Shown here one piece after another: positions 11,423 to 29,128 of a DNA stretch of 64,000 bases. Under the pieces are notes generated by a model. That model was not told the origin of the DNA. It made no database searches and saw nothing but the letters and a program-made list of their open reading frames with translations. The position numbers were made by a program, and so were the translations under genes. Location: NCBI RefSeq assembly GCF_007990755.1, contig NZ_BJXA01000015.1, forward strand, positions 62,001 through 126,000, in the 5' to 3' direction. Source of the DNA: Nocardia ninae NBRC 108245 (lineage in GTDB: Bacteria > Actinomycetota > Actinomycetes > Mycobacteriales > Mycobacteriaceae). The first letter of the stretch is position 1. The number at the start of each line of letters is the position of its first letter.

Positions 11423-11539
11423 GTGCATTACGCAACATTTCCCAAAAACTTATGCGCTCCGTGGTTGAAGTCCCCGCTGCAGTATCGATCGGCCCCTGAC
11501 CGAACAGCTCCCGGGGCCAGGTCCTGCCGGGCGCCGATG

Positions 11540-11638
11540 GTCGTACGGGCCGGGCAAACTGCCCTGGGACGACCCACCGTACGTGTCCGGCGAGCCCGTG
11601 GCGCTACAGCTACCTGTAGGTTTCAATCGCCAGCCTGC
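11540..11638 (+). repeat. Duplicated promoter segment, copy 2
   Basis: Second copy of the segment at 11326-11422, offset about 215 bp, with a few substitutions and small indels. It is upstream of the serine hydrolase gene (start 11679). Confidence 0.8.
11604..11619. promoter_or_regulatory. Palindromic operator candidate, hydrolase side
   Basis: CTACAG-CTAC-CTGTAG, 60 nt before the hydrolase ATG. Conserved arms with a changed spacer base suggest that the arms are what is recognised. Confidence 0.6.
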
Positions 11639-11678
11639 GGTAGCGACTGTCGGCTCGCCCTTACCTAGCGTGGAATTC

Positions 11679-12896
11679 ATGAAATCCACAGCGCCACAGC
11701 ACGGCTCGTCCCGGCGGCGGAACCGCCGGATCCGCCGGGGTTGGCTGACTCTCGCGGTCGCCGCGCTCGTCACCGCCGGGGTGGCCGAGGCTGTCCAGCA
11801 ATCAGACGACGAGCCCGCCGCGTCCGGCTACCGGGAGGTCGACCTGCGCCGGGACATCGATGCCCTTCGGGCACTGGGGATTACCGGCATCCAGGCCCGG
11901 GTGACCACAGCTTCCGGGCGTGATCTGGTCGCGACCACCGGCGTCGCCGAGACAGGCACGAACAGCCCTGTGGCCGCCGACGGCTATTTCCGGATAGCCA
12001 GTACCGGCAAGGCACTCATGGCCACGGTCATCCTGCAGCTGGTAGACCAGGGCAAGCTGGCGCTGGACGACACGGTGGACCGCTGGCTGCCCGGGCTGAT
12101 CGACGGCAACGGCAACGACGGACGCGAAATCACCGTGCGCCAGCTCTTGCAAAACACCAGCGGCCTGCACGACGACCTCCCCGGCTTCGATTCCGCCGCA
12201 GAGTATTACGAGCATCGATACGACACCTATACCGCGGAACAGATAGTCCAACGGTCGATGAAGCACCGCCCGGACTTCCAGCCCGGCACCGGTTGGAGCT
12301 ATTCCAATACCGGTTACGTCGTCGCCGGCATGATCGCGGAAAAGGCCTCTGCTCGCCCGTGGCAAAAGACGATCGCCAGCCAGATCCTGAAACCGCTCGA
12401 CCTGAACCACACCTACCTTTCGGGTTCCACCCCCGCTCTGCGCAACCCGCACGCCAGGGGCTATCAGGTCTTCGCCTCCGGCGAACAGACCGACGTCACC
12501 GAACAGATCGTCCCCGACCTCGGCGGCTATGTCTCCACCACGCGGGACATCAACCGCTTCTTCCAGGGACTGCTGGGCGGCGAGCTGGTATCCGCGGCGG
12601 GCCTGGCCGAGATGCGAGACACCGTCGCGATCGACCGGCAACTCGAGGCGATCTGGCCCGGTGGACGCTACGGCCTCGGCTTGGTCAACCGCCCGCTGAC
12701 CTGCGGCGGCACCTATTGGAGTCACCAGGGGGGCGAAGCGGGCTACATCACCCTCAACGGCGCCACCGACGAGGGCACGCGCACCGTCACCCTCTCCATG
12801 ACCACCAGCTTCAACGACCCCGACCGAACGCTCCGGCAACAGCAGCTCGCCAGCGACCTGGTCGACCGCGCGCTGTGCGACACCTCCGGCAGTTGA
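11679..12896 (+). CDS. Penicillin-binding-type serine hydrolase (class C beta-lactamase fold)
   Basis: 405 aa. Basic N-terminus (RRRNRRIRRGW) and a hydrophobic segment at 22-36 give a signal or anchor, so the enzyme acts outside the membrane. Catalytic motifs: S108-T-G-K111, Y208-S-N210, and HQGGEAG near 351 in place of KTG. LLQNTSGL and WSYSNTGYVVAG are typical of the Beta-lactamase superfamily that includes D-Ala-D-Ala carboxypeptidases and esterases. The exact substrate is unknown. It is followed 44 bp later by a DoxX-like gene in the same direction and is divergent from the two-component genes, which probably regulate it. Confidence 0.88.
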   Translation: MKSTAPQHGSSRRRNRRIRRGWLTLAVAALVTAGVAEAVQQSDDEPAASGYREVDLRRDIDALRALGITGIQARVTTASGRDLVATTGVAETGTNSPVAADGYFRIASTGKALMATVILQLVDQGKLALDDTVDRWLPGLIDGNGNDGREITVRQLLQNTSGLHDDLPGFDSAAEYYEHRYDTYTAEQIVQRSMKHRPDFQPGTGWSYSNTGYVVAGMIAEKASARPWQKTIASQILKPLDLNHTYLSGSTPALRNPHARGYQVFASGEQTDVTEQIVPDLGGYVSTTRDINRFFQGLLGGELVSAAGLAEMRDTVAIDRQLEAIWPGGRYGLGLVNRPLTCGGTYWSHQGGEAGYITLNGATDEGTRTVTLSMTTSFNDPDRTLRQQQLASDLVDRALCDTSGS

Positions 12897-12940
12897 GGTC
12901 ACTGCTGGCGATCCTGCTCCCTTTGACGAAAGGATGACCC

Positions 12941-14311
12941 GTGGCAACCATTGATGTCACCGGCACTACGACCGCCCGCCCGGCAGCCGCGACCGCGCCC
13001 CACGGGCCCTCCGATCTCTCTCCGCGGCGCTGGAATCCGTTCACTCGCATACTGTTCCGGTTCTGCTTCCTGTACTTCGGGCTGTACTGCCTTGCCGCAC
13101 CGGTGATGCTGTATGAGTTCACCGGACTGTTCCGCTCCTGGTTGCCCGACGACGCACTGATCTGGTTGATCCGGCTACTGGAACCAGCACTGTCCTGGGT
13201 GGGCCACACAATATTCGACGTCGATGTGGTGGTGATCCTCAATGGCAGTGGTGACCAGAGCATTTACTGGATATTGCAGTTCTGCCTGCTGATCGTCGCG
13301 CTGGTCGGCACCCTGGCATGGACCACACTCGATACTCGGCGTACCGAGTATCGGCGGTTGGCCGGCTGGCTGCTGCTCGGGCTGCGACTGTGCGTCGCCG
13401 CGCAAATGGTGCACTACGGCCTGGCCAAGGTCATTCCGGTACAAATGCCCGAGCCCGACCTCACAACCTTGCTGACACCGGTCGGCGACCTCACGCCGTT
13501 CACACTGCTGTGGAATCAGGTCGGCGTTTCACCGGAGTACCAGACCCTGCTCGGCACAGCGGAATTGGTGGCCGGGCTGCTGCTGTTCATCCCCCGGACC
13601 GCACTGCTGGGAACGATCTTGGCCGTGGTCAGCATGGCGCAGGTGTTTATCCTGAACATGACCTTCGGCGTGCCCGTGAAGCTCTTCTCCGGCCACCTGC
13701 TGCTGATCGGCTTGGTGCTCTTGGCTCCCGAAGCAAGGCGGCTGACCGCGGTACTGGTCTGGAACCGATCGACCGAGCCCTCCACCACGCCGTACCCGTT
13801 CCACACCCCACGCGTGCGACGAATCGCAGCGGGGGCCCAGGCCGCACTCGCACTCTGGGTGACAGTGTCGATGACATACCTGACCTGGGACATTTGGCAG
13901 ATGGTCGGGCCGGACCGCCCGAAACCCGCCCTGTACGGCATCTGGACGGTAACCGAATTCCTCCGCGACGGACACTCGGTACCACCCCTACTCACGGCGG
14001 ACGACATCCGCTGGCGCACCGTCATATTCGACCACGTCGGACAGATCTCATACCAGCTGACCGACGGCACACTCATCACAGCACCCGGCACCGTAGACGC
14101 CACCACACACCGCATCGCGATCGCCGGCGCGCCTAGCGGCGACACCCCCTCGGCAACGCTGACCTTCGAACAATCCGCCACCGACCGGACCACGCTGACC
14201 GGTAACCTCGGGCCCCACCCGGTGGCCATCACCCTGCAGCGCGTCGATCCGGACACGTTTCCGTTGCGCAGCACCACATTCCGCTGGATCCAGGATCGAC
14301 CCGCACGCTAG
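12941..14311 (+). CDS. DoxX-like multi-pass membrane protein
   Basis: 456 aa from GTG 12941, preceded by GAAAGGATG. An N-terminal soluble lead is followed by about seven to eight membrane segments, including YFGLYCLAAPVML, ILQFCLLIVALVGTLAW, LLLGLRLCVAAQMVHYGLAKV, LVAGLLLFIPRTALLGTILAVV and LLLIGLVLLAPEARRL. The Y/H-G-x-x-K and A-E-L-x-x-G-L-L-L pattern is that of DoxX-type proteins. The last about 110 residues are an extracytoplasmic beta-rich domain. It forms an operon with the serine hydrolase. A role in redox or envelope homeostasis is inferred from the family. Confidence 0.7.
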   Translation: MATIDVTGTTTARPAAATAPHGPSDLSPRRWNPFTRILFRFCFLYFGLYCLAAPVMLYEFTGLFRSWLPDDALIWLIRLLEPALSWVGHTIFDVDVVVILNGSGDQSIYWILQFCLLIVALVGTLAWTTLDTRRTEYRRLAGWLLLGLRLCVAAQMVHYGLAKVIPVQMPEPDLTTLLTPVGDLTPFTLLWNQVGVSPEYQTLLGTAELVAGLLLFIPRTALLGTILAVVSMAQVFILNMTFGVPVKLFSGHLLLIGLVLLAPEARRLTAVLVWNRSTEPSTTPYPFHTPRVRRIAAGAQAALALWVTVSMTYLTWDIWQMVGPDRPKPALYGIWTVTEFLRDGHSVPPLLTADDIRWRTVIFDHVGQISYQLTDGTLITAPGTVDATTHRIAIAGAPSGDTPSATLTFEQSATDRTTLTGNLGPHPVAITLQRVDPDTFPLRSTTFRWIQDRPAR

Positions 14312-14362
14312 CTTCGCCCTCGCCTGCGCCGCACCGCTCGAGCAGCCATCCGCGCAGCCGCT

Positions 14363-14421
14363 CATCGGCATTTGCGTGCGTTGGGAAGCCTTGCCGACCA
14401 ACAAATCTGGACGCTCGACCA
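14363..14421 (+). repeat. Dispersed intergenic repeat, copy B
   Basis: 59 bp identical to 5741-5799. It lies between the convergent DoxX-like and MFS genes. The flanks then diverge (AACGCGGCTCCGCGCC here). Confidence 0.9.
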
Positions 14422-14513
14422 ACGCGGCTCCGCGCCATGAGCGTGCGTTGGTGTCGCCGAGCTGCCTTGGGGTAAAGCGGAGGTCGCCACCACCAAAAGC
14501 GCGCCAGAGCCGT

Positions 14514-15935
14514 TCACCGTGCAGGTCTGTCGCGGAGGATGGCGGTCAGTAGGGCCGCGGATGCGGCGATGGCCGCGGTGGCGGTGAACGCGGTGCCGTA
14601 GGCGTGGGCGAGGTGGGATGGTGTGGGTTGGTTGCCGGAGTCGCCGGCCGCGGTGGTGATGGCGAGTAGTCCGGCGAGTCCGAGTGCGCCGCCGATTTGG
14701 CGGGTGGTGTTGATCAGTCCGCCGGCCAGTCCGGTGTGTTCGGTGGGAACACCGGCGGTGGCTCGTGCGGTGAGCAGAACGAATGCGATGCCTTGGCCGG
14801 TGCCGATGAGTAGTGAGGGAGCGGCGATGTCGATGAGGAATCGCCCGTCGACGGGGGTGCGTGCGAGCCAGGCCAGCCCGGCTGCGAGCAGTGCCAGTGC
14901 GGTGGCCAGCAGGGCGCGCGTGTTGAGGTATCGAGCCAGTTTCGGTGTGATCGTGGAGGCGGTTGTGATCATGATCGCCAGTGGCAGTTGGGTGAGGCCG
15001 GCTCGGATCGGTGTGTAACCGAGCACCTTCTGCTGGTAGAGCGGGAGGAAGAAGAACAGTCCCAGCCATACCGCGCCGAGCAGCGTCATGACGATGTTCG
15101 CGGCAAGTACCCCGCCGATGCGCAGAATCGCGGGCGCGACGAGCGGCTGCGCTAGCCGCCGCTGTGATACGGCGAAGAGGATGAGCAGTACTACCGCCGC
15201 GATCAGTGGGGCGATGACGCGAGGCGTGGTCCAGCCGTATTGTCCGCCTATCGACAGCGCGTAGGTGAGTGCGGCGAGTCCACCGGTCACGGTGGCCGCG
15301 CCCCATAGGTCGACCCGGCCGCCCGCCGGACGGTCGGCGGGTACCAGCGATATCGTGGCGGCCAGCACCGCGAACGTTATCGGTGCGCCGATGAAAAATA
15401 CTGCGCGCCAGCCGAATACGCCAGTCAGGATACCGCCCGACAGCACACCGGCGACGCCGCCGATTCCCGATACCGCGCCCCATACCCCGATTGCCCGCGC
15501 GCGGCCCGCGCCGGCGGGAAACAATGTCAGCACCAGTGCGAGTGCGGTCGGGGCGAGCAGTGCCGCGCCCACCCCCTGTCCGACTCTGGCGGCGAGGAGG
15601 ACCACTGCGGTGGGGGCGAGGCCCGCCGCGATCGAGCTGGCCATGAAAATCACTGTGCCGGTGAGAAATACCCGCCGCCGTCCGAATACGTCGCCGAGTC
15701 GGCCGCCCAGGAGCAGCAGGGCCCCGAAGGCGAGTACGTAGCCGTTGACGATCCAGGAGAGCCCGATGGGTGACAGTTCGAGCCCGCGCCCGATGTCGGG
15801 CAAGGCGACATTGACGATCGAGGTGGTCAGCACGACCAGGAACTGTGCGGTGGCCAGGACGGTGAGCCCGATCCATGCCCGGGCCGACGGGGTGGGGGTT
15901 CGGTTTACGGGGACGGGCTCTAGTCGGGCGTTCAT
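14514..15935 (-). CDS. MFS drug exporter, 14-TM (DHA2/EmrB-QacA) type
   Basis: 473 aa from ATG 15935 with GGAGACAG upstream. It has the family motifs TSIVNVALPDIGRGL near 38-52, WIVNGYVLAFGALLLLGGRLGDVFGRRRVF (motif A) and a long run of hydrophobic segments consistent with 14 helices. Such proteins are proton-driven multidrug exporters. It follows the carotenoid-oxygenase gene in the same direction after a gap of about 110 bp, so it may export a product or toxic intermediate of that operon, or be independent. Confidence 0.85.
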   Translation of the reverse strand: MNARLEPVPVNRTPTPSARAWIGLTVLATAQFLVVLTTSIVNVALPDIGRGLELSPIGLSWIVNGYVLAFGALLLLGGRLGDVFGRRRVFLTGTVIFMASSIAAGLAPTAVVLLAARVGQGVGAALLAPTALALVLTLFPAGAGRARAIGVWGAVSGIGGVAGVLSGGILTGVFGWRAVFFIGAPITFAVLAATISLVPADRPAGGRVDLWGAATVTGGLAALTYALSIGGQYGWTTPRVIAPLIAAVVLLILFAVSQRRLAQPLVAPAILRIGGVLAANIVMTLLGAVWLGLFFFLPLYQQKVLGYTPIRAGLTQLPLAIMITTASTITPKLARYLNTRALLATALALLAAGLAWLARTPVDGRFLIDIAAPSLLIGTGQGIAFVLLTARATAGVPTEHTGLAGGLINTTRQIGGALGLAGLLAITTAAGDSGNQPTPSHLAHAYGTAFTATAAIAASAALLTAILRDRPAR

Positions 15936-16045
15936 GATCTGTCTCCAGGTCCATGCACATGTGGCCGGCCGACGGCTCGGTGGCCATCGGACGGCCACAT
16001 GCGATTGTCTTGACGAATTCGGTTGTGCCGCAGGTAGAACGCCGA

Positions 16046-17398
16046 TCAGTCCGCGATCCAGGATCCGTGGATACCGCCGGGCACGTGCCGGGGCAGTTCG
16101 ACGGCCGCGACCGGCGGCGCGGTGAAGTCGCGGGCGTCGAGGACGAGCAGCTCCGACGCCTTGCCGGCGCGGTCGCCGACGAGGGTGAGCAGGTAGCCGT
16201 CGTCTTCGCCCGTGGCGTCGGTGGCGGGGACGAAAACGGCTTCACCGGGGATGCGGCCCGCACCGGTCGGGGCCAGCAGGCGTGCGCCGGTGTCGTTGTC
16301 GTACTTGACGATTCCCACACCGCCGTATCCGGAGCCGGGGTAGGCGACCGCGTAGCTGTAGCGGTTGCGGCGACCGACGTAGTCGTCGTTGATGGTCGGG
16401 AATTCGGTGACCAGCGAGTCCATCATTTCCTCGCGTGCCGTGGTCTGCCCGGGTTCGAGGACCCAGCGGTACTGCAGGGCACCGGCGACCGGGTCGGTCG
16501 GGTATCCGGGTACGCCGATCCACCACTTCCACGACGTCTCCCAGCTCGACCGGTCCAGCCGGGGGCCTTCCACGACGACCCGCCCGGCCGCGTCCTCGTA
16601 GGCATTCGAAACATGCAGCATCGCACCGGGTTCCACGTCGAACCAGCGCACCGGACCGGTGCCGGTACGGGGCAGGATGCCCATGCGCGCCTGGTAGGCG
16701 TCGTCCCACCGGTAGGGGATGCCGGAGGTTTCGGCGGGGTTGAAGGTCACCGACAGGTCCAGCCACACCGCGTAGTGCTCGGTGATCGCGAAGTCGTGCA
16801 TCAGCGACGGGCCCGCCCCCTCGACGACCTGCTGGTGGCGGAGGTCGCCGTCGGCGGAGGCGATGTAGTAGATCAGGTGCGGCGCGACCGGGGAGTAGGC
16901 GAAGAAATGCAGTTCACCGGTGACCGGGTCCACCTTCGGGTGTGCGGTCATCGCGGTTTTCAGCTTGCCGCCGAAGTCGTAGGCGCCGACCGTATCCAGC
17001 TCCGGAGTCACCTCGAACGGCAGGTTCGCCTCCTGCAGCGCCAAGATGCGGCCGGCGTGCTCGATGATGTGGGTGCCCGCCACACTGGCGGTCAAATCGA
17101 TGCTGCCGTCCTCGCGGTTATAGGGTGCGCCGTCGAGAGCGGGCGTCTTCACCCACCGGTTGCGATACCACTCGGCCTGACCGTTACGCAGCCGCAGGCC
17201 GTGGAGCATGCCCGCGCCTTTGAACCAATGTGTCGGTGTGTCGCCGGGTTTCGGGTTGTGACCGTTGCGGAAGTAGCGGCCGTTCAGCTCGGTGGGGATG
17301 GTCCCGCGCACCGGCAGGTTGTGCGCGGTCACCTCGTCCGGCACGGGCCGGTAGTGGCCGGTCAGGTAGGGCTTGGCAAGCGTGGTGTCGCTGTTCAT
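16046..17398 (-). CDS. Carotenoid/stilbene cleavage oxygenase (RPE65 family)
   Basis: 450 aa. All four iron-ligand histidines of the family are in place: H153 (TAHPKVDP), H201 (LMHDFAIT), H262 (MLHVSNAYED) and H444 (GGIHGSW). N-terminal blocks GRYFRNGHNPKP and GDTPTHWFKGAGMLHGL are also typical. These non-heme Fe(II) enzymes split a C=C bond with O2 in apocarotenoids or in stilbenes such as lignostilbene and resveratrol. It starts 16 nt after the formylglycine-generating-enzyme stop, with GAGG as ribosome site, making it the last gene of the sulfatase operon. The substrate is unknown; the sulfatase context suggests a phenolic released from a sulfate ester. Confidence 0.9.
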   Translation of the reverse strand: MNSDTTLAKPYLTGHYRPVPDEVTAHNLPVRGTIPTELNGRYFRNGHNPKPGDTPTHWFKGAGMLHGLRLRNGQAEWYRNRWVKTPALDGAPYNREDGSIDLTASVAGTHIIEHAGRILALQEANLPFEVTPELDTVGAYDFGGKLKTAMTAHPKVDPVTGELHFFAYSPVAPHLIYYIASADGDLRHQQVVEGAGPSLMHDFAITEHYAVWLDLSVTFNPAETSGIPYRWDDAYQARMGILPRTGTGPVRWFDVEPGAMLHVSNAYEDAAGRVVVEGPRLDRSSWETSWKWWIGVPGYPTDPVAGALQYRWVLEPGQTTAREEMMDSLVTEFPTINDDYVGRRNRYSYAVAYPGSGYGGVGIVKYDNDTGARLLAPTGAGRIPGEAVFVPATDATGEDDGYLLTLVGDRAGKASELLVLDARDFTAPPVAAVELPRHVPGGIHGSWIAD

Positions 17399-17414
17399 CG
17401 GGTTACCTCGTGAT

Positions 17415-18350
17415 TCAATCGAGTGTCGAAACCTGTTGGGTGAATGAGTGTTTCGAGCCATCGGCGGGTAGTGCTGAGACGGTGCGGAAGCCGGCGTTGC
17501 CCATGGTGGCATCGGGGGTGTTCGAGGATCGGGCGGCTGTGCGGTATCTGGTGCAGTAGCTGTCGTGGCACAGGTACGAGCCGCCGCGCAGTACCCGCGA
17601 CTCCCCGGTGGCGGCGCCTTGCGGATCGCGCACATGCCCTGCTCGGGCATCGTGGCTGTAGGTGTTCGGGGAGAATCGGTCATAGCACCACTCCCAGACG
17701 TTGCCTGCCGTCTGCCAGAGTCCGTACCCGTTGGGCCGGTAGGAGCGCACCGGTGCGGTGGTCAGGAATCCGTCCTCCCGGGTATTGACGGTCGGGAAGG
17801 TGCCCTGCCAGATGTTGGCCCGCCACTGGCCGCCTGCACCCGGGGCGCCGTCACCCCACGGATAGCGGGCTCCAGACAGGCCACCACGCGCGGCGAATTC
17901 CCATTGCGCTTCGGTCGGGAGACGCCGACCTGCCCAGTCGCAGTAGGCGGTGGCGTCGTGCCAGGAAACCTGTACGACCGGGTGGTCGGCGCGGTCGTCG
18001 ATGCTGGAATGCCGTCCTTCGGGATGCCGCCAGCTTGCCCCCTTCACCCCCACCCACCAGGGGCTCTGTGGAGCGCGTCCGACGAGGTCGTGCTCGTCGG
18101 CGGCCAGCACGAGGTGGAATACGGCGGTGAACCCGAGCTTTTCCGCCTCGGTTTCGTATCCGGTCTGCTCGACGAACGCCGCGAAGGCGGCATTGGTGAC
18201 GGTGGTCGCGTCGATGGTGAACGGCGACAGTTCCACCGCGTGCACCGGCGTCTCCCCGTCGGCGTGAAATCCGTTGCGGTGCGGATCGCCCATCGCGAAT
18301 GTCCCGCCGCGCAGGTGTGCCTGTTCGATCGGGTGGCGATCGGAGCTCAT
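17415..18350 (-). CDS. Formylglycine-generating enzyme (sulfatase activator)
   Basis: 311 aa. The whole FGE-sulfatase domain is present: GGTFAMGDP near 15-23, the HPVVQVSWHDATAYCDWAGRRLPTEAQWEFAARGG block near 123-157, and the active-site segment RGGSYLCHDSYC with Cys261 and Cys266. This is the C-x4-C pair that oxidises the sulfatase cysteine to formylglycine using Cu and O2. SSNTPD.....GFR follows as in true FGEs. Its ATG overlaps the MFS stop (ATGA). With a CxPxR sulfatase two genes upstream, it is clearly a dedicated maturation enzyme, not merely an FGE-fold protein. Confidence 0.95.
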   Translation of the reverse strand: MSSDRHPIEQAHLRGGTFAMGDPHRNGFHADGETPVHAVELSPFTIDATTVTNAAFAAFVEQTGYETEAEKLGFTAVFHLVLAADEHDLVGRAPQSPWWVGVKGASWRHPEGRHSSIDDRADHPVVQVSWHDATAYCDWAGRRLPTEAQWEFAARGGLSGARYPWGDGAPGAGGQWRANIWQGTFPTVNTREDGFLTTAPVRSYRPNGYGLWQTAGNVWEWCYDRFSPNTYSHDARAGHVRDPQGAATGESRVLRGGSYLCHDSYCTRYRTAARSSNTPDATMGNAGFRTVSALPADGSKHSFTQQVSTLD

Positions 18351-19675
18351 CGAATTCGCTCGGCTAGGCAGGTGCGTTGCCGTTCGACGTCGCGGGGATA
18401 GGTGCGATAAAGAATGGTGCAGAAGGCGGCGTTGGCGAGCATGAGTATGCCGGGGATCCAGAGCATGACGCCGCGCAGGCCGATCACGTCGGTGAGCAGT
18501 CCGGCGGCGAGGTTGAACAGCGCGTAGGCGAGGGCTTCGAACACCGAGAGCAGCAGTGCGAAGGCGGCGCCACGCATTTCGGGCGGTACTACGGCGGCGA
18601 CGATGGGCCGGTTCACTCCGGGGTTGAGACCTTGCATGAATCCCAGCACCGCCCAGAAGCCGGCGAAGATCTCGATGCCGCCCCAGTCGTGCTGGGTGCC
18701 GAGGATGGCGACGACGCCGAAACCGAGTTGGGCGAACTGCAGGATGATGATGCGTCCGGTCTGCGGGAATCGGGTCTGGAGGAAGTCGGTGGCCAGACTG
18801 CCGCCGAAGGTGCCCAACAGGTAGCCGATGCCGAACGGCAGGGTGACGATCGAGGCGACCGCGGTGGTGAAGCCGTAGGTGTGTACGAGGAAGATGATGC
18901 CGAAGCTCATGATCAGCAGATGGCCGGAGATGAGTCGCTGGATCAGCATGAGTACGAACGTGGGGATCCGGAGCATCTGTTGCACTGCGGCCCAAGTGAT
19001 CCGGTCGTTCTCGGCATGCTGCGGCCGGGCGGTTTCGCTGGCTCCGACGCCAGGGTCGGTGAAGAACACGGCCAGCAGGACGGCGGTGAGCACGGTGATG
19101 GCACCCCAGGCGAAGAATCCGTACCGCCAGCCGTCTGGCACGCGGGACAACTGCCCGATGAGCGGTCCGAGTACCGAGCCGAGCAGCGAGATCGCGCCCC
19201 AGGTGTAGCCGTTGGCGCGTCCGCGGGCTGTGTCGTCGAACAGGTCGGCGGTGATTTCGCTGGCGATCGGCAGTGCCGCGGCGATGAACACGGCCGATAG
19301 TCCGTAGAGGATGATGAGCTGGACGTAGTTCTGTGCGAGTCCGGTTGCGGCGGTGGCGATTCCGGTGCAGCCGGTGGCAACGGCGAAGGTGATCTTGCGG
19401 TTCGTCCGGTGCGCCACCCACGCCCATAGTGGCCCGAAGACGATGCTGATGAACTTCGCGAGGGAGGTCAGGTAGCCGACCGCGGCCGCGGGCGCCGCGA
19501 GCGCTTGGACGATGACCGGGGCGAGCGTGCTGAGCACGCTGGATTCGTTGTTGTCGGCCCACAGCGGAGCGACGACGAGGGTGAGTTTGCGCCAGCGGCC
19601 GGGAATGATCACCGGCGTGGCATCGGTGAGTGCCGGGGGCACCGGCACGACTTTGTCTATCAAGGCAGGTCTCAC
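18347..19675 (-). CDS. MFS transporter, probable importer of the sulfatase substrate
   Basis: 442 aa from GTG 19675, whose GTGA overlaps the sulfatase stop. About 12 hydrophobic helices with a central charged loop near residues 225-245 (SETARPQHAENDR) give a 6+6 MFS layout. WVAHRTNRKITFAV near 86-99 corresponds to the loop 2-3 motif A. It differs from the DHA2 exporter at 14514. Its position between sulfatase and FGE, with 4-nt overlaps on both sides, argues for transport of the sulfated substrate or a product. Direction of transport is inference. Confidence 0.85.
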   Translation of the reverse strand: MRPALIDKVVPVPPALTDATPVIIPGRWRKLTLVVAPLWADNNESSVLSTLAPVIVQALAAPAAAVGYLTSLAKFISIVFGPLWAWVAHRTNRKITFAVATGCTGIATAATGLAQNYVQLIILYGLSAVFIAAALPIASEITADLFDDTARGRANGYTWGAISLLGSVLGPLIGQLSRVPDGWRYGFFAWGAITVLTAVLLAVFFTDPGVGASETARPQHAENDRITWAAVQQMLRIPTFVLMLIQRLISGHLLIMSFGIIFLVHTYGFTTAVASIVTLPFGIGYLLGTFGGSLATDFLQTRFPQTGRIIILQFAQLGFGVVAILGTQHDWGGIEIFAGFWAVLGFMQGLNPGVNRPIVAAVVPPEMRGAAFALLLSVFEALAYALFNLAAGLLTDVIGLRGVMLWIPGILMLANAAFCTILYRTYPRDVERQRTCLAERIR

Positions 19676-21468
19676 TGAGGGTGGCGGGAGATCGGGCGGC
19701 TCTCGGCCAGTGCCCGATCGAGGCTGTACAGGGTTCGCCTGGTCAGAACCGGGCTGAAGGGGGCCAATTCGAGGAGGGTGGCCGAGGCGGTCTGCTCGGC
19801 TATGCGGGCGATCGCGGGCCCGAGCGCCGCCTCGACGACCGTGCGGGTATCGGCCGTGGCGAGCAGCTCGGTGATCGGCGTGTTCACCCCGGGCCGCCCG
19901 GTCGGGAAGTCTTCCGGAACCGGGAGCGGCTCGACAGCTTCCTGATAGATCGGCAGTTGGGTTCTGGCCAGCAGGTGCCGGCCGGCTGCCTTTCCTGCCA
20001 GCGGCAGGCCGAGGCGGAGGAACTGGGAGTCCGGCGCGTCGTTGGCACGCATGAGGTCGAGCAGCAGGTCGATCATCCGCAGTTCGAGGTCGTCGTCGAC
20101 GATCGGGTTCTCCTGGTGGGGGTCGCTGTCCAGGTCGAACAGAACCGTGCCGAAGGCGAACGGGTCACCGACGGCAAAGCCGGGTACGCGCAGCACGGGG
20201 ACGTTCTTGGTGAACGACAGGGGGCCGACCAGCTGCGCGGTCTCCAGTTCGCCTGGGGTGAAACGGGTGGCCATGTGCGTGGGCATCAGGGTGTGCTCGA
20301 ATAGCGGCGCATTGCCTGGCGCGGCGGGGGCTCGCAGGTACACGTACCGCCCGTCGGTGACGTTGACGTGCCCGCCGAAGACTCCGAACAGCGCGCCGAC
20401 CCGGTGCCTGTCCGGTGCTGGATCGCGCAGCAGCGGCAGCAGGGACCGTCCCTGCATATCCGCGGTGGGCTGGAGGCCGAAGAAATCCAGCAGGGTGGGG
20501 CCGAAGTCGATGGTCTGAACCAGTTCTCGGCAGGTGCCTGCTTTCGTCCGGGCTATCGGATCCCACAGGAACAGCGGCGTGTGGATGTTTTCGTCGTACC
20601 AGGGCTGCACGTTCTTGCCCCACCAGCCGTGCTCGCCGAGCAGGAACCCGTGGTCGGTGCACACGATCAGCAACGTGTCGTCCCACAGGCCCAGCTCGTC
20701 GAAGACATCCAGGACGCGACCGAGCGACGCGTCGCACATGGTCAGCAGCGCGGCGTACTCGGCGCGCGTACGGTGCACGGTTTCCGAATCTTCTTCCACC
20801 CGTTTGTAGTCGGGCCACGCCGGAGACTCGCTCGTCGCGTCCAGTGCGGGATAGTGACGGTGGTAGTCGCGGTGGGAGAAGAACGGTTCGTGCGGGTCGA
20901 AGCACTCGATCTGCACGAACCACGCGTCCTCGGCGTGATTGGTCCTGATGAACTCGAGGCCGGCGTTCACGGTCCGGATCTGTGGATGATCGGCCTCTCG
21001 GGTCAGGTGCTGCCGGTTCACCAGATCTTGCCGCCACAGCTGGTGGCGCACCCGGCGCGGGCTCTGTGGCTGCGGCGGATCGGCGACCTGCCCCTTCCAC
21101 GCGTCGCCCTCCTGACCGCGGAAGAACTCGAAGGTACGGAATCGGCTGTGGTACGTCGCTCCGCCGTCCTCCCAGTAGTGCGGATGGTCGGTGACCAGGT
21201 GCGGATATATCCCCGCCGCGGACAACATTTCCGGCACCGAATCGTCGAAAGGCTCCAAGGGGCCCCAGGAACGGTGCAGGAAGTTGTAGCGGCCGGTGTG
21301 CATCTCGCGGCGGGCGGGCATGCACGGCATCGAGCCGCCGTAGCAGTTGTCGAACCGCACAGTGTGCGCGGCGAGCCGGATGAAGTTCGGCGCGTGCACC
21401 CACTCGGCGCCGTACGGTGGCAGTAACCGGCGGTTGAGACTGTCGAACAACATCAAGACCGCGCGCAT
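19672..21468 (-). CDS. Type I (formylglycine-dependent) sulfatase
   Basis: 598 aa. The activation motif C49-M-P-A-R53 (SMPCMPARRE) is the CxPxR target of the formylglycine-generating enzyme; HTGRYNF follows as in the family. Metal and phosphate-site blocks include LMLFDSLNR at the start and VCTDHGFLLGEHGWWGKN near 290-307. No signal peptide is present, so it acts in the cytoplasm on an imported substrate. Its ATG shares a base with the PadR stop (TGATG) and its stop overlaps the MFS GTG. It hydrolyses sulfate esters; the organic moiety is unknown. The C-terminal 120 residues are less typical. Confidence 0.92.
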   Translation of the reverse strand: MRAVLMLFDSLNRRLLPPYGAEWVHAPNFIRLAAHTVRFDNCYGGSMPCMPARREMHTGRYNFLHRSWGPLEPFDDSVPEMLSAAGIYPHLVTDHPHYWEDGGATYHSRFRTFEFFRGQEGDAWKGQVADPPQPQSPRRVRHQLWRQDLVNRQHLTREADHPQIRTVNAGLEFIRTNHAEDAWFVQIECFDPHEPFFSHRDYHRHYPALDATSESPAWPDYKRVEEDSETVHRTRAEYAALLTMCDASLGRVLDVFDELGLWDDTLLIVCTDHGFLLGEHGWWGKNVQPWYDENIHTPLFLWDPIARTKAGTCRELVQTIDFGPTLLDFFGLQPTADMQGRSLLPLLRDPAPDRHRVGALFGVFGGHVNVTDGRYVYLRAPAAPGNAPLFEHTLMPTHMATRFTPGELETAQLVGPLSFTKNVPVLRVPGFAVGDPFAFGTVLFDLDSDPHQENPIVDDDLELRMIDLLLDLMRANDAPDSQFLRLGLPLAGKAAGRHLLARTQLPIYQEAVEPLPVPEDFPTGRPGVNTPITELLATADTRTVVEAALGPAIARIAEQTASATLLELAPFSPVLTRRTLYSLDRALAESRPISRHPQ

Positions 21469-22073
21469 CAGCTGCCCGCCTTGCGACGCCCAGCCGGCCC
21501 GGGCTCGACGGTGGCCGTGCGGGCCTCCAATGTCTCCAGCAACTCCTCGAGCCACGCGATCCAGCCGTCGATCTGCCGCTCGCCCTGGCGCCGGATCTGT
21601 TGTGCGATGAAATCCAAGGCCTCCGCATCGATTTCGGCGCGATCGTCGTCGGTCTCGGTGTCGTACGGGCGGTTTCGGTTGAGTCGCACCTGTTCGCGCC
21701 GCGCCGTCAGTTCTTCCCGCACGAGATCGAGCGTGCCGGGCTCGCCGAGCATCATGCTCACGCGGAGCCGGAACGCGAACTCCGGATCCTGGAACCGGCG
21801 CGGCGGCAGGTACGAGGAGCGCACCCAGCGCCGCAGCCGCGCCATCCCAGCCGCGGTGACGGTGTAGATCTTCGCGTCCGGCCCGCCGTCGCGGGGATCG
21901 GTCCGCCACACCACGGAGCCCTCGACCTGCATGCGGTTCAGCTCGCGGTAGATCTGGCTGGCATGGCGGTCCAGGCCGACGAACTTGCCTTCGACATAGC
22001 ACCACCGCTTGATGTCGTAGCCGCTCATCGCGCGGGCCGCCAGCAGCCCTAGCAGAGGGTATTCGAGCTTCAT
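21468..22073 (-). CDS. PadR-family transcriptional regulator
   Basis: 201 aa. The winged helix is characteristic: LEYPLLGLLAARAMSGYDIKRW near 3-24, then ASQIYRELNRMQVEGSVVWR near 38-57 and KIYTVTAAGMARLRRWV. A C-terminal helical dimerisation domain follows (residues 90-190). It is the first gene of the sulfatase operon and overlaps the sulfatase start. Two direct copies of a TGCAAAAGCA-containing element just upstream are a probable operator, so autoregulation and control of the whole operon are likely. PadR proteins are often relieved by phenolic compounds, which suits the proposed pathway. Confidence 0.9.
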   Translation of the reverse strand: MKLEYPLLGLLAARAMSGYDIKRWCYVEGKFVGLDRHASQIYRELNRMQVEGSVVWRTDPRDGGPDAKIYTVTAAGMARLRRWVRSSYLPPRRFQDPEFAFRLRVSMMLGEPGTLDLVREELTARREQVRLNRNRPYDTETDDDRAEIDAEALDFIAQQIRRQGERQIDGWIAWLEELLETLEARTATVEPGPAGRRKAGS

Positions 22074-22089
22074 CGGGCCCTTCCTGAGG

Positions 22090-22118
22090 TAGGTGCAAAA
22101 GCACTAGGTGCAAAAGCA
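22090..22118. promoter_or_regulatory. Tandem PadR operator candidate
   Basis: TAGGTGCAAAAGCA occurs at 22090-22103 and again at 22105-22118, spaced 15 bp. Each contains the small dyad TGC-AAAA-GCA. It lies 17-45 nt upstream of the PadR start codon. Confidence 0.7.
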
Positions 22119-22202
22119 TATAGCTTGAGCGCCGTTTCGTCGGCTATTCGGTGCGAAATCCTTTACCGCCCAAAGCATCAGCCATACTCGAGCCCTGGTT
22201 TG

Positions 22203-23381
22203 TCACCTCGCCGCGAAGGCGGTTTCGGGAGTCCAGGACAGTGCGTTGTCCATCGCGCTGAGGTACATCGAACGCGGCGTCAGCCACACGAGGCCGTTGC
22301 GGAACGCGACCTTCAGCGGATTGCGCCACTGCGCAATCCGTCCTGACGAGGCCGCGACCCGCGCCAGTTCCTGGGTCCGCGGACGCCGCGCCAGGTCGTA
22401 GTCGCCTGCCAGGGATTCCGCGGTCGACGCTTTCGCGGCGAGCCCACCCAATGTCGCGGCGTCCTCCAGTGCCTGTGCCGCTCCCTGCCCGAGATCGGGT
22501 GTGCTCGCGTGCGCGGCGTCACCGAGCAGGACCACCCGGCCGCGGGTATAGGTGGGCAGCGCTGTCTCCAGGGAATAGATGTCGTGGCGTAGTAGTGATT
22601 TCGGCGGGGTGGCGGCGAGCAGCCGCGGGATCGGGTCGTGCCAGTCGCGGAAACGTCGCGCGACCGCCTCGATGCTGTCGTGCGGGTGGGAGTTCGGCGG
22701 GGCCGGCAGCGTCGCGTACCAGTACACCCGCCCATCGGTCAGCGGCATAATGCCGAACCGCTTGCCCCGCCCCCAGCTTTCGATCAACGAGCGGCCCACC
22801 TCGATGTCGGCGGCGGCCTCGGCTGGTACCACGCCGCGCCAGGTGAGGTACCCGGCGTAGATCGGCCTCGGGTGCCCGGGGAACAGTTGCGCTCTTGTCG
22901 GACTGTCGAGGCCGTCCGCGGCGACGACGAGGTCCGCTCTGAGAGTTGCGGATTCGCCGGATGGACGCTGGAACGTCACGGTGCCCGTTTCGGGATCGAC
23001 ACCGGTCACCCGGTGGCCGGTTTGCAGGTGGGTGTGCACCAGCGCCCCGATAAGCATGGCGTGTGCGTCGGCCCGGTGCAGCATGTACCCGGAGACGCCG
23101 AACCGGCGCCGGACCTCGGTGACGTCCCCCTGCAACAGCCACCGTCCGGATGCGGTCCGAATTCCCGTGGCGCCCTGCGCGGTATCCAACTCCCGGAGCC
23201 GGTCCGCAAGTCCCAGCCAGTTCAGCGCGCGCACCGCGTTGGGTGCCAGCATCAGTCCCGCGCCGACCGGCCGGAACTCCTGCGCGCGTTCCAGCACCGT
23301 CACCTTCCAGCCGGCGCGCTCCAGGCCGAGCGCCGCGCTCAACCCGCCGATTCCGCCACCGACCACCACTGCCGTGCTCAT
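22203..23381 (-). CDS. FAD-dependent aromatic hydroxylase/monooxygenase
   Basis: 392 aa. GxGxxG at the N-terminus (VVGGGIGGLSAALGLERAGWKVTVLER), the DG motif (VVAADGLDSPTR near 152) and GDAAH (RVVLLGDAAHASTPDLGQGAAQALEDA near 278-304) define the PHBH/salicylate-hydroxylase-like family. These enzymes use NAD(P)H and O2 to hydroxylate aromatic or polycyclic compounds. It starts 2 nt after the DUF6790-like gene, hence an operon. It is 129 bp upstream of, and in the same direction as, the PadR-sulfatase operon, so it may act in the same pathway. Confidence 0.88.
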   Translation of the reverse strand: MSTAVVVGGGIGGLSAALGLERAGWKVTVLERAQEFRPVGAGLMLAPNAVRALNWLGLADRLRELDTAQGATGIRTASGRWLLQGDVTEVRRRFGVSGYMLHRADAHAMLIGALVHTHLQTGHRVTGVDPETGTVTFQRPSGESATLRADLVVAADGLDSPTRAQLFPGHPRPIYAGYLTWRGVVPAEAAADIEVGRSLIESWGRGKRFGIMPLTDGRVYWYATLPAPPNSHPHDSIEAVARRFRDWHDPIPRLLAATPPKSLLRHDIYSLETALPTYTRGRVVLLGDAAHASTPDLGQGAAQALEDAATLGGLAAKASTAESLAGDYDLARRPRTQELARVAASSGRIAQWRNPLKVAFRNGLVWLTPRSMYLSAMDNALSWTPETAFAAR

Positions 23382-23383
23382 GC

Positions 23384-23950
23384 CTACCTGCTCCCGGTCT
23401 CGCGCGAGGAAACACCCGCGCCGCTAGACAACAGGGCCGCAGTCACGGGCTGCTCGGTAGCGGACAGTCGGTGTGAGTAGCGGGCGAGGACGATCATGAC
23501 CGCGGGGAGGAGCAGGTCGTAGACCAGTACTCCGCCGGTGTTGCCGGGAGCGTGGTCGCCGTTGGCGAACCACTGGTAGAGGTGGCCGATCGCCGCGCCC
23601 CACAGGAACATTCCGGCGCCGAGGCCGATGGTGATGCGCTCGCGGGCAGTGGCCGAGGCGGCGCGGAATCCCATGACGGCGAGTCCGAGGTTGGCGAAGG
23701 CGATCTCGAATTGGAACGGGCTCTGGTTGAAGCCGATTGCGGTGGCCATCGCGTCCGGGACGGTCAGGAAGGCGATCGTCATCCACAGGCTGCCGCAGCC
23801 GAGTGCGGCCACGGCCCACCATCGCTGCCAGGTTTCCAGGGCGGCGGCACGGGAGGGGCTGTGCCGGGTTCGGATCAGTGCGCCGACCACCGCGATCACT
23901 ATCCAGATCAGGGGGAAGGCCGACTGGGCGAGGTAGGACATCTCGTTCAT
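23384..23950 (-). CDS. Membrane protein, DUF6790-like
   Basis: 188 aa with four to five membrane helices: FPLIWIVIAVVGALI, WWAVAALGCGSLWMTIAFLTV, FEIAFANLGLAVMGF, ITIGLGAGMFLWGAAIGHLYQ and GVLVYDLLLPAVMIVLARY. The GFNQSPFQFEIAFANLGLAVMG block is the part I associate with DUF6790 proteins of unknown function. It is the first gene of a two-gene operon with the FAD monooxygenase. A perfect 16-bp palindrome directly upstream suggests repressor control. Confidence 0.65.
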   Translation of the reverse strand: MNEMSYLAQSAFPLIWIVIAVVGALIRTRHSPSRAAALETWQRWWAVAALGCGSLWMTIAFLTVPDAMATAIGFNQSPFQFEIAFANLGLAVMGFRAASATARERITIGLGAGMFLWGAAIGHLYQWFANGDHAPGNTGGVLVYDLLLPAVMIVLARYSHRLSATEQPVTAALLSSGAGVSSRETGSR

Positions 23951-23966
23951 AAAGTTGAGTGTTGCA

Positions 23967-23982
23967 TGGTTAATATTAACCA
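23967..23982. promoter_or_regulatory. Perfect palindrome (operator) before the DUF6790-monooxygenase operon
   Basis: TGGTTAATATTAACCA, perfect over 16 bp, immediately downstream of a -35-like TTGACT (minus strand, 23987-23982). It is AT-rich in a GC-rich setting. No regulator gene lies next to it, so the binding protein is unknown. Confidence 0.65.
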
Positions 23983-24158
23983 GTCAAGACTCGGGGTTAT
24001 CGGTTACGGGGTGTCGGACCGGGCTATCGGCGTGGCTCGAGGAGTTTGGCCAGCGTGGCAGTGTCGCGTAGGTAGCGTTCGTACGGGTTCTTGCGTGCGC
24101 TCAGCTCAACGGAAATGGTGGCTGGGCAGCGCCCCTTCGACGCTGCTGTCATCGACCG

Positions 24159-24542
24159 GTGAATCCACCTGTGTCGCTGTCCCGTCCGGCACCACGATCA
24201 TCCCAACGGTCGAGTTGGATGGCGTATGTTGCTCTCGGTCTCGCATGCATCGCGGGGGCAGCGGCCTTCGCAACGCGTCGCTTTCCCTGCCCATGGGACC
24301 CGCGCATGGAAACCCTCGCAGGGCTGCTGATCTGGTTGGCGCTGCCCGTGATCCCGGCCTGCATAGCGCTCGTGCTCGGCAGTAAGGGAAAGGTTCGTAC
24401 CGGGCGCACGGAAAGCAGATCCTGGCCCGCATTCGCCGCACGCTTCATCGCGGGTGTTGTCCTATTCATCTCCCTTTTCTCAGTAGCCGTTCTGTGGCTT
24501 TTTTTCCTAGGGATGCGGGACTTTTCGACTTTCGGGGACTGA
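24159..24542 (+). CDS. Small hypothetical membrane protein
   Basis: 127 aa from GTG 24159. Three hydrophobic segments: WMAYVALGLACIAGAAAFA near 20-38, LAGLLIWLALPVIPACIALVLG near 53-74 and FIAGVVLFISLFSVAVLWLFFLG near 96-118, with basic loops between. I recognise no family. No strong ribosome site precedes the start. It is divergent from the operon at 23384-23950. Confidence 0.5.
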   Translation: MNPPVSLSRPAPRSSQRSSWMAYVALGLACIAGAAAFATRRFPCPWDPRMETLAGLLIWLALPVIPACIALVLGSKGKVRTGRTESRSWPAFAARFIAGVVLFISLFSVAVLWLFFLGMRDFSTFGD

Positions 24543-24603
24543 CCGTCATGTCGTAGAGCCGCTCGCAGGCCACTGGGGTAGGGGGTCGCCAGCGCTGAGT
24601 CGT

Positions 24604-24627
24604 CCGTCCCCGGACGCGCGGGGACGG
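24604..24627. terminator. GC hairpin after the small membrane-protein gene
   Basis: CCGTCCCC and GGGGACGG form an 8-bp stem with an 8-nt loop. It lies 62 nt after the stop at 24542 and just at the edge of the transposase remnant, so it might instead belong to the element. Confidence 0.35.
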
Positions 24628-24841
24628 CTCACTGCGCTCCCTGAAACGACGCCTGTCCAACGTCGTCTACAGCCGGATGCTCGCCGATGCACACCGCAAC
24701 GAGAAGGCAAGTCCGGGAGGGCAATCGGGGGCGCATTTTGACTCCTGCGCGACCGGCTCGACCCCGTATGCCGATCCTTCGGACAAGCCACAACCCGGAC
24801 CCGCCATCCACCAGCTTATCGAACTATCAACTGCTACTTGA
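24611..24841 (+). pseudogene. C-terminal remnant of an IS110-type transposase
   Basis: In the frame ending TGA at 24839-24841 the sequence reads SLKRRLSNVVYSRMLADAH, then SPGGQSGAH, STPYADPSDKPQPGP. This is the layout of the C-terminal end of IS110/IS1111-like transposases (..LKRR.S.VVYR.L..D.., ..GPGGH.GA.., ..TP..D.SDK.LPGPA). The frame is open for about 70 codons but has no start and no catalytic DEDD region. The rest of the element is gone. Confidence 0.65.
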
Positions 24842-24895
24842 CACTAAAGACCTCCGATTCCGCTAACTGTCAAGCCGCAGCGGAGGTCGTTGGCG

Positions 24896-25285
24896 TTGTG
24901 GGTGGTTGGCCGAATGCTTCTGTTGGGTCGCAGTTTTGGCGGGTTTGCAAAAACGATCGTCTGGCTGCCGTCGGCTGGATCTGGGCCACCACCATGGTCG
25001 TTCAACCCGGGCGTGCTCGGCGGCATTATCGAAGCCGCCGCGACCACGTCGATCGTCATGCTCCGGCGGGCCGGTACCGCGACATGGTTGGGTACCGGCT
25101 ATTTCGTCGACGGTGCTGTGCCGACTGCCGTGGTGTTGCTTTGGTACCTGCTCCTGCTCGCGGGCAGTGTGCTGCTGATTCGGGTATGGCTCGGCCGGCC
25201 GGGCTTCGACGATCGGCATCGCCTTGCCCGCTATGCGGGTGCATTGGCGGCCTATTACAGCTACGAAATCCTGATCTTTTCATGA
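24896..25285 (+). CDS. Small hypothetical membrane protein
   Basis: 129 aa from TTG 24896, chosen because GGAGG (24882-24886) lies 9 nt upstream. ATG 24914 is an alternative. Two to three hydrophobic segments: VLGGIIEAAATTSIVML near 40-56, AVPTAVVLLWYLLLLAGSVLLIRVWLG near 74-100 and a C-terminal ALAAYYSYEILIF. I recognise no family. It begins directly after the IS110 remnant and ends 46 bp before a lipoprotein gene in the same direction. Confidence 0.45.
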   Translation: MWVVGRMLLLGRSFGGFAKTIVWLPSAGSGPPPWSFNPGVLGGIIEAAATTSIVMLRRAGTATWLGTGYFVDGAVPTAVVLLWYLLLLAGSVLLIRVWLGRPGFDDRHRLARYAGALAAYYSYEILIFS

Positions 25286-25331
25286 TCTTCCAGCCTCGTA
25301 TGTAGGTCAACGAGGTCGTAGGGTCCCCCCG

Positions 25332-26315
25332 GTGAGGAACATCGTCGCTGCCATCGTGATCGGGCTGTCGTGTGTAGTCACCGTGTCGTCGTGCTCGTCT
25401 GCGGACCTATCCGAGCGGACCCCAGCCAAGGAGGTCCCACTCGAGGGGGTCGATGCGATCCTCGCCGAACGTGAGAGCCTGCGCTCGCTGGATCCGTGCG
25501 GCTATTTCGACGACGCGGCGATACACCGGATCGGGACGCCCGACGCCATCGAGATCGATAATTCGTTCGACACCTGCATGGTGACCTTCCGGCCCCCGCA
25601 CGATCTGGCCTCGATCTCAGTCAGCATAGGTGGACTCACCGAGGCCGATCTAGGGCAGGGGCCTCTGCTGCACACGCCACAACACCAGATCGGTGACACC
25701 ACGGTGCGGACCTTCTCCGTAGACCGGTTGTCTTGCAACGCAATTGTCCCTGTCAATGATTACTGGAGCATCGCGATCGGCGCGCTCGCCGCCGCTGGGC
25801 GCGAAGGCCGACCACGGGACCAGTGCGCTGCAGCGCTGGAGCTCGCCACCGCGATCGTCCCACGTCGGCTCGATCGTCCTTTACGCGTGAATTCCCCACA
25901 CACTCACCGGAACTCGCGACTCGCCGCCCTCGACCCATGCAAGGTGCTCGACACGCTCGGGCAAGGACACCACCCGTATCGGGTCAACGATACTTCGCCA
26001 TGGAATTGCAGCTTCGAACTCGACAACAACGACGATGGGATCCTCCAGCACATCGACCTCCACTTCGCCGAGCCCGGTGAGGTGGCAGACGCTACGGTCA
26101 CCGGCACCACGATCGGAGGTCTTCGAGCCCGCGAGTACTACCTCTCCGCAGAAGCCTCGCCGCTGAAGCGGAGCAGATGCCGGATCGCGATCTGGACCCC
26201 GGTCGACGAGCGCATCGGACATTCCGAATCCATCACCATCTCCACCGACGAATGTGCCGCCGGGCGCGCCGTCGGCGAAGAGATTGTCCGGCTCTTCAAC
26301 CAGCTCCCGCGCTGA
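25332..26315 (+). CDS. DUF3558-like lipoprotein with internal duplication
   Basis: 327 aa from GTG 25332. The signal peptide ends in a lipobox (VTVSSC, Cys21), so the protein is lipid-anchored outside the membrane. The mature part holds two similar units, each opening with a LDPC motif (SLDPCGYFD near 54-62 and ALDPCKVLD near 197-205). Each is followed by a beta-rich region with a second cysteine (TCMVTF, NCSFEL) and a C-terminal cysteine (DQCAAA, DECAAGRA). This is the DUF3558 pattern of mycolata lipoproteins, here present twice. Function unknown. Confidence 0.75.
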   Translation: MRNIVAAIVIGLSCVVTVSSCSSADLSERTPAKEVPLEGVDAILAERESLRSLDPCGYFDDAAIHRIGTPDAIEIDNSFDTCMVTFRPPHDLASISVSIGGLTEADLGQGPLLHTPQHQIGDTTVRTFSVDRLSCNAIVPVNDYWSIAIGALAAAGREGRPRDQCAAALELATAIVPRRLDRPLRVNSPHTHRNSRLAALDPCKVLDTLGQGHHPYRVNDTSPWNCSFELDNNDDGILQHIDLHFAEPGEVADATVTGTTIGGLRAREYYLSAEASPLKRSRCRIAIWTPVDERIGHSESITISTDECAAGRAVGEEIVRLFNQLPR

Positions 26316-26627
26316 CCACCCCCGAACAACAGCACGGCGTCGAACTTCGGTCTATTGACGCATCGCCAGGACAACGCGAGTACGAACAGCACACCCCCGA
26401 ACTCGAGATGTCGTAAGGCGTGGCTCAGCTGGTCGTCACCAACCCCAGCCAGAAGGTCCATCCTCAATTCGGCCATGTGCGCGCGTTGCCGATGCTGGGA
26501 TTGATCTCGGCCCGTTGCTCTTTCACGGACCTGCGCTGACCGCTCCGACCGCGCGGGTCGCGGCAGATGCGGGACCGGTTTTCTCGAGCGTCGCGGCGAT
26601 GGCAGCGATCTGGCGTCAGCGGTGGAT
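26316..26627. other. Intergenic region between convergent genes, repeat-family motifs
   Basis: No gene seen. It contains GTGCGCGCGTTGCCGATGC near 26477 and GCGCGGGTCGCGGCAGATGCGG near 26550-26575, both resembling modules at 7550-7600, 39080 and 41763. Confidence 0.5.
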
Positions 26628-28204: not shown

Positions 28205-28309
28205 CACCCGAACCGGCAACGGACTACGCATCACCCCCACCGCGATGCTGCGCAACTGAACACAGCACCAGCGCGGCACCTCGCCTGTCCGACTCGAGGG
28301 TCACCGGAT

Positions 28310-28509: not shown

Positions 28510-28534
28510 TTGCACGGCACCGACCTTTGCGCGC

Positions 28535-29062: not shown

Positions 29063-29128
29063 TGCCATTACTCCCAAATGTGGTAATAATACTGGTATCG
29101 GAAACATTCTAGGTCGGCTGGAGGAAAA

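Follow-up and report, generated by a model that had tools for sequence, protein, structure and literature searches.

The stretch of Nocardia ninae NBRC 108245 DNA analysed here and called the window (64,000 nt; contig NZ_BJXA01000015.1, positions 62,001 to 126,000) carries five tightly packed minus-strand genes, all intact, for a PadR-family regulator, a sulfatase, a transporter of the major facilitator superfamily (MFS), a formylglycine-generating enzyme (FGE) and an enzyme of the carotenoid-oxygenase family (Table 1). The five-gene arrangement is not due to chance. Judged by gene content, motifs, conservation, a recombination breakpoint and a block similarity that exceeds that of the core genes, all taken from the sequence, the set is probably chimeric and of recent origin, drawn from two operons with no relation to each other, in which a desulfation cassette (PadR–sulfatase–MFS–FGE) was joined to the tail of an aromatic-catabolism-like operon. 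A sequence-only reading of the same DNA had instead proposed one evolved operon that would take up a sulfated compound, plausibly a stilbenoid or an apocarotenoid, remove its sulfate and cleave a double bond in the product.

The gene packing described in that reading is confirmed by the coordinates, and the four junctions match its description. The sulfatase ATG and the PadR TGA share one base, the MFS and FGE genes overlap at an ATGA, and a 16-nt gap separates the FGE from the oxygenase gene. The 4-nt overlap between the sulfatase and the MFS holds only if the MFS starts at GTG 19675; the gene caller favoured a start at 19612-19648. No terminator-like site was found at the FGE-oxygenase joint, and the spacing is compatible with co-transcription. 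A search for sigma-70 promoters in the region returned none, a search that is uninformative for a high-GC actinomycete. All five family assignments lie above the Pfam cut-offs. A second transporter gene, MFS2, follows the oxygenase gene outside the interval covered by the sequence-only reading (16046..22118).

The four cassette genes occur together in relatives, mostly without the oxygenase. The genus search covered 148 genomes, with the window's genome denoted G000, and the sulfatase was found in 17 of them, in nine at 84-100% identity (the window's included) and in eight at about 60%. The copy in G067, one of the nine, matches only to residue 495 and is decayed. Of the eight close relatives, seven have the MFS and FGE genes after the sulfatase, and six of those seven also have PadR before it; the cassette of G121 is without PadR. 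Beyond Nocardia, at least 584 of 597 pattern stretches from genome_contigs encode sulfatase relatives, and the best 80 of these belong to actinobacteria, Rhizobiales, Chloroflexi and a Pseudomonas. Gene context was counted at 94 distinct loci, namely these 80 (the best 80 of at least 584) plus the 17 from Nocardia minus three duplicates (L093, L136 and L139), the window not being counted, and the locus statistics therefore describe the nearer part of the sulfatase family. The home-made gene caller mispredicted or fused reading frames at several loci, and the counts of gene presence therefore rely on tblastn with the window proteins as queries (E ≤ 1e-6, >40% of the query, and ≥33% identity for the MFS), over about 10 kb or less on each side, settings that miss distant partners. 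Near the sulfatase, the FGE is present in 61 loci, PadR in 50, the cassette MFS in 39 and the oxygenase in 1. In 25 of the 94 loci PadR immediately precedes the sulfatase in the same orientation, in 27 the MFS is the same-strand downstream neighbour of the sulfatase, and in 21 the PadR-sulfatase-MFS order and strand are kept. All four cassette genes stand in order in 10 loci (six from Nocardia and four from Streptomyces), nine of which lack the oxygenase.

The oxygenase has a different home. Orthologues at 94-96% identity occur in eight other genomes of the 148, and in seven of these eight they sit elsewhere, with an SRPBCC gene directly upstream and MFS2 directly downstream. An extradiol-dioxygenase-like gene precedes the SRPBCC gene in these native loci, and MFS2 follows the oxygenase at 87-90% identity in all seven (one of them cut by a contig end). 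A divergent GntR gene was called in six of the seven, an FAA hydrolase in four and an amidohydrolase in four (one a fragment). In some genomes the home-made caller made errors in this part of the locus, and the gene names were taken from one representative each. In G047, the locus L082:4755-12241 reads amidohydrolase, FAA hydrolase, extradiol-like gene, SRPBCC, oxygenase and MFS2, with the divergent GntR. The native locus looks like an uncharacterised aromatic catabolic operon. Neither the extradiol-like gene (E ≤ 1e-20) nor the SRPBCC gene (E ≤ 1e-10) has a match in the 204-contig assembly of the window genome. Eight genomes hold both an intact close-clade sulfatase and a 94-100% oxygenase, and in six of them the two genes are assigned to separate contigs or are separated by over 1 Mb. 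Most relatives thus have no oxygenase beside the cassette, the outcome that the sequence-only reading had itself named as refuting, and its proposal that the oxygenase shares one pathway with the cassette is not upheld.

Among the genomes with a 94-96% orthologue, the FGE-oxygenase neighbourhood was found only in G021, besides the window genome. In blastn comparisons followed from the PadR side, homology to the cassette ends at 17427 in the nearest copies (L032 and L033) and at 17478-17480 in more distant ones (L034-L038). From the other side, homology to the oxygenase loci begins at 17423 (L079 and L084, in genomes G121 and G093), at 17416 (L085, in G040) or at 17414 (L080-L083, in genomes G065, G058, G047 and G008). 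Because the two homologies meet at the joint listed in Table 1, the FGE reading frame ends in oxygenase leader sequence, which supplies its final two codons and its stop; about 25 nt of the leader are left. By these alignments, the oxygenase is a graft from a different operon, joined by rearrangement. A single ancestral five-gene operon was considered and rejected, given the one oxygenase-bearing locus in 94, the native operon in seven genomes and the position of the breakpoint at the FGE end. In G021 (L032), 629 extra bases lie between the FGE and the oxygenase (L032:13133-13761), and MFS2 is broken, with 208 aa called. The spacer reads as gene debris that, by eye, includes an MFS C-terminus. 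G021 retains the extradiol-like and SRPBCC genes, placed some 18 kb away from its oxygenase and in the reverse orientation, with the missing front of the oxygenase operon at 79.2-84.0 kb on contig C2, a layout that we infer was left by a single inversion.

The fused joint is young and rare, and is best explained by rearrangement together with horizontal transfer. Window positions 15511-24086 are 93-94% identical to G021:C2:52763-61947, and no collinear match was found beside the shared block within G021:C2:6500-106000 (99.5 kb compared). Between G000 and G021 the sulfatase is 93.4% and the oxygenase 95.4% identical, but gyrB is only 86.6% and rpoB 89.0%. Because the block is 93-94% identical while gyrB reaches only 86.6%, the fused block probably moved horizontally. 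The nearest compared relative of the window genome, G079 (gyrB 97.3%, rpoB 99.1%), has no sulfatase match at E ≤ 1e-30 and its best oxygenase is only 62% identical; a DNA search with window positions 10500-30000 gave no G079 sulfatase match among the matches listed. The unfused cassette of G040 is likewise closer to that of G021 than gyrB would predict (cassette 91.5%, gyrB 87.1%), so the cassette itself seems to be mobile. A plasmid-borne origin of the block was also considered and is unsupported, as 72,556 plasmid records gave partial matches of 73-77% in five records only. It is noted that the window genome has two rpoB genes (G000:C26:99841-102714 and G000:C55:58201-61104), as is common to several relatives, and two full gyrB matches.

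Several observations weigh against this account. Against a single fusion, the cassette tree pairs G021 with the unfused G040 rather than with the window (83% bootstrap, and 96% for the sulfatase gene alone), despite a G000-G021 cassette identity of 94.2% that exceeds the 91.5% between G021 and G040. The alternative grouping of the window with G021 is not rejected (approximately unbiased test, p 0.19 with 5000 resamplings, for which the program warned of few replicates), and the oxygenase tree has 42-57% support at the relevant nodes. Two independent fusions, a later recombination, or one fusion followed by transfer and deletion are possible. The G021 rpoB is partial, leaving gyrB to carry more weight, and the G021 inversion rests on gene positions along one contig. 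The two species that carry the chimera are distant from each other and both keep it intact; its oxygenase, still under selection, could have gained a linked role.

In the scheme that we favour, the MFS would import a small sulfate ester, or export a product made from such an ester. The FGE would activate the cytoplasmic sulfatase by oxidising its Cys49 to formylglycine, and the sulfatase would then hydrolyse the ester. PadR, bound to a palindrome before its own gene, would keep the cassette repressed unless a ligand is present to release it; the sequence-only reading proposed a phenolic intermediate as this ligand. An operon with the order amidohydrolase, FAA hydrolase, extradiol-like, SRPBCC, oxygenase and MFS2 and with a divergent GntR would have supplied the oxygenase and MFS2, which form its tail. 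A rearrangement would have severed this tail and set it behind the FGE. The simplest case is a single event in a G021-like lineage, and the fused block of about 9 kb would then have passed horizontally to the lineage of the window. The oxygenase would probably be read through from the PadR promoter, and it need not act on the product of the sulfatase. Transport direction, repression, read-through, the single fusion and the direction of transfer are the parts of this scheme that we infer.

How much the fused oxygenase matters to its host is a question on which three other accounts differ. Tentatively, and with less than even confidence, the oxygenase may be a neutral passenger bound to decay, with the cassette alone functional. 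The recurrence of the four-gene order without the oxygenase in nine of ten relative loci agrees with such a view, as does the failure to find two of its partner genes in the window genome. The intact reading frame speaks against it, and so do the substitution rates: among six oxygenase sequences, dN/dS lies at 0.103-0.178 for all but one of the 15 pairs, the exception giving 0.085, with 0.149 for the window-G021 pair. These values indicate that the oxygenase is under purifying selection, though dN/dS also covers the time before the fusion. The same selection would fit an operon captured with a function, a doubtful account in which the fusion is young and an oxygenase under PadR control proved useful, to desulfate and then cleave or detoxify a compound, so that the fused block spread or formed more than once. 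With about 25 nt of native leader left, expression of the oxygenase probably needs read-through, the same fused block is present in two species distant by gyrB with the block more similar than gyrB, and two independent fusions would be compatible with the cassette tree. Set against this are the small number of genomes, two, and the state of G021, in which MFS2 is broken and the 629 nt of gene debris have been kept between the FGE and the oxygenase. A step further, and slightly less probable again, is that an operon has been caught while forming, with an orphaned double-bond-cleaving oxygenase placed behind a PadR-controlled cassette and useful enough in a desulfate-then-cleave route to spread among distant Nocardia species or to arise in them twice.

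The single evolved pathway for sulfated stilbenoids or apocarotenoids is very improbable beside these. Tight packing on the same strand with every gene intact speaks for it, and the nearest NCBIfam model to the oxygenase is the 8'-apo-carotenoid 13,14-dioxygenase, at 370 bits, under the cut-off of 675. It would leave unexplained the near absence of the oxygenase from sulfatase loci, the orthologues residing in another operon in seven genomes and a breakpoint at the FGE end; the oxygenase moreover has Gln122 in place of the stilbene-cleaver lysine and scores far below the cut-offs of lignostilbene models. The chimera of two operons is the reading retained here.

By its motifs and neighbours, the PadR-sulfatase-MFS-FGE set is a genuine self-sufficient desulfation cassette, as the sequence-only reading had held; the lone two-cysteine FGE and the recurring gene order in relatives back that view. 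The sulfatase carries the C-x-P-x-R activation motif as C49-M-P-A-R53, and the FGE has the expected fold, with 407 bits to the formylglycine-generating enzymes 6muj/2q17, and both active-site cysteines, so that the catalytic motifs named earlier are verified. In an alignment of 54 family sequences, P51, R53, D272, H273 and K285 of the sulfatase are invariant, while C49 is Cys and D9 is conserved in 53, each with one gap. We take D9, D272, H273 and K285 to be the metal and catalytic residues (Asp, Asp-His and Lys). A simple hydropathy scan found no hydrophobic segment in the sulfatase, in agreement with the earlier statement that it lacks a signal peptide. The window genome has two other FGE-fold matches, EgtB (457.7 bits, above its cut-off) and a 467-aa protein that is 29% identical to the FGE and lacks the cysteine expected at the first of the two catalytic sites; only the window FGE, among the FGE-fold proteins found in the genome, has both catalytic cysteines and no better assignment. 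The two other PF00884 matches of the genome, an STM4013-type hydrolase and a phosphodiesterase-like protein, are both without CxPxR. The cassette is therefore the sole sulfatase-FGE pair found in the genome.

The sulfatase shares with the formylglycine-dependent (S1) sulfatases and their FGE (for the SulfAtlas classification see PMC5066984) the CxPxR motif, the conserved metal and catalytic residues and a two-cysteine FGE. It differs in that its best PDB profile match, the N-acetylglucosamine-6-sulfatase 5g2v, reaches only 110 bits, followed by phosphonate monoester hydrolases and choline sulfatases; this PDB profile search found no close relative with a solved structure. It differs also in having no predicted signal segment and in its own PadR and MFS.

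PadR may be regulated by itself. A block just before its ribosome-binding site (Table 1) is conserved in all seven PadR-bearing upstream regions that were aligned (the window's included), with a perfect TAGGTGC-NNNN-GCACCTA in three and a near form in the other four. The core, GTGCNNNNGCACCTA at 22090-22104, is the sole match in the 64-kb window, where 0.03 would be expected. Autoregulation through this predicted palindromic operator would follow naturally. The PadR protein has no match to an NCBIfam family.

The four-histidine character of the oxygenase noted earlier is verified, as H153, H201, H262 and H444 sit in contexts common to the aligned solved structures; presumably these histidines bind iron. 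The four histidines and a full-length match are what the enzyme has in common with the carotenoid cleavage oxygenases (RPE65 family). It differs from these and from the lignostilbene enzymes in lying under both equivalog cut-offs (for the lignostilbene dioxygenase model, 187.8 bits versus 800) and in having Gln for Lys, and it differs in its native neighbours, extradiol-dioxygenase-like and FAA hydrolase genes. Lys164 of CAO1 aligns with Gln122, and Gln occupies this stilbene-cleaver Lys position in the window protein and in all 14 homologues aligned (L080 being outside the alignment). The position of Tyr-101 of lignostilbene dioxygenase aligns at P92, beside Y93, and we assume Lys-134 of that enzyme to be equivalent to CAO1 Lys164. 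Lys-134 is described as binding the substrate 4-hydroxyl (PMC8191317; on stilbene oxygenases see also PMC6097328). The stilbenoid substrate suggested by the sequence-only reading is weakened by the glutamine and by the low lignostilbene score, and was dropped as the leading idea. An apocarotenoid may be the substrate. The native neighbours of the oxygenase point to an aromatic compound with a cleavable double bond that would not be a classic 4-hydroxystilbene.

A shared pathway of sulfatase and oxygenase was a wrong lead, and the better one is the sulfatase family itself, whose members often come with their own FGE and PadR, plus an MFS or a peptide-type ABC transporter. The cassette is widespread in actinobacteria and apparently undescribed; no description of it was found in the open-licence papers searched. 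Other sulfatase loci carry peptide-type ABC transporters (SBP5, DppB, DppCD and DppD), further sulfatases, GH3 or GH1 glycosidases and TetR or LysR regulators. In L100, L119, L130, L134, L141, L143, L144, L153, L164 and L171, the sulfatase lies in or beside an SBP5/DppB/DppCD/DppD set and not directly before an MFS; the taxa with such ABC-associated loci are Arthrobacter, Microbacterium, Kribbella, Devosia, Neorhizobium, other Rhizobiales and Oryzicola. The 60%-clade loci resemble sulfatase/glycosidase clusters for sulfated glycans in adding second or third sulfatases, GH3 or GH1 and transporters; the window cassette, by contrast, is minimal and has no glycosidase. All eight Nocardia genomes of the 60% clade, with 32 GH3 matches between them, have a GH3 gene within 8 kb of the sulfatase. 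Because GH3 lies near the sulfatase in all of these genomes, our best guess is that the wider sulfatase family acts on sulfated glycosides, which implies nothing for the window's branch. The absence of GH3 near the sulfatase in all four close-clade genomes checked suggests that the glycoside idea may not fit the window. Identification of the sulfatase substrate would show which compound serves soil and plant-associated bacteria as a source of sulfur or carbon, and the fused block is a recent case of an operon assembled by rearrangement and then, probably, transferred.

Table 1. Features of the fused block and its surroundings in the window
Feature	Position	Strand	Basis
Candidate PadR operator, window form CCTAGTGCTTTTGCACCTA	22090..22108	-	Just before the PadR ribosome-binding site; conserved block
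PadR-family regulator, 201 aa, first gene of the cassette	21468..22073	-	Pfam PadR 33.8 bits (cut-off 27) and Vir_act_alpha_C 23.5 bits, both above cut-off
Formylglycine-type sulfatase, 598 aa	19672..21468	-	PF00884 106 bits; CMPAR at 49-53
Cassette MFS transporter	18347..19675	-	PF07690 (MFS_1) 110.7 bits; start at GTG 19675 or at 19612-19648
Formylglycine-generating enzyme, 311 aa	17415..18350	-	FGE-sulfatase 267 bits; Cys261 and Cys266
Recombination breakpoint, sulfatase-cassette homology to oxygenase-operon homology	17423..17428	none	blastn
Carotenoid-oxygenase-family four-histidine enzyme, 450 aa, apparently grafted gene	16046..17398	-	PF03055 (RPE65) 379 bits
MFS2, DHA2-type efflux family	14514..15935	-	TIGR00711 211.8 bits, below the cut-off of 230.2
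FAD monooxygenase-like gene	22203..23381	-	Pfam; within the block shared with G021
DUF6790 gene	23384..23950	-	Pfam; within the block shared with G021

Beyond MFS2, at window positions 11679-14311, a beta-lactamase-fold protein (PF00144) adjoins a 456-aa hydrophobic-looking protein that has no Pfam or NCBIfam match. At the other end of the shared block, the DUF6790 gene (23384-23950) recurs in varied contexts across several Nocardia, with a 92% copy in G079, which is without the cassette. This gene may mark a rearrangement hot spot.

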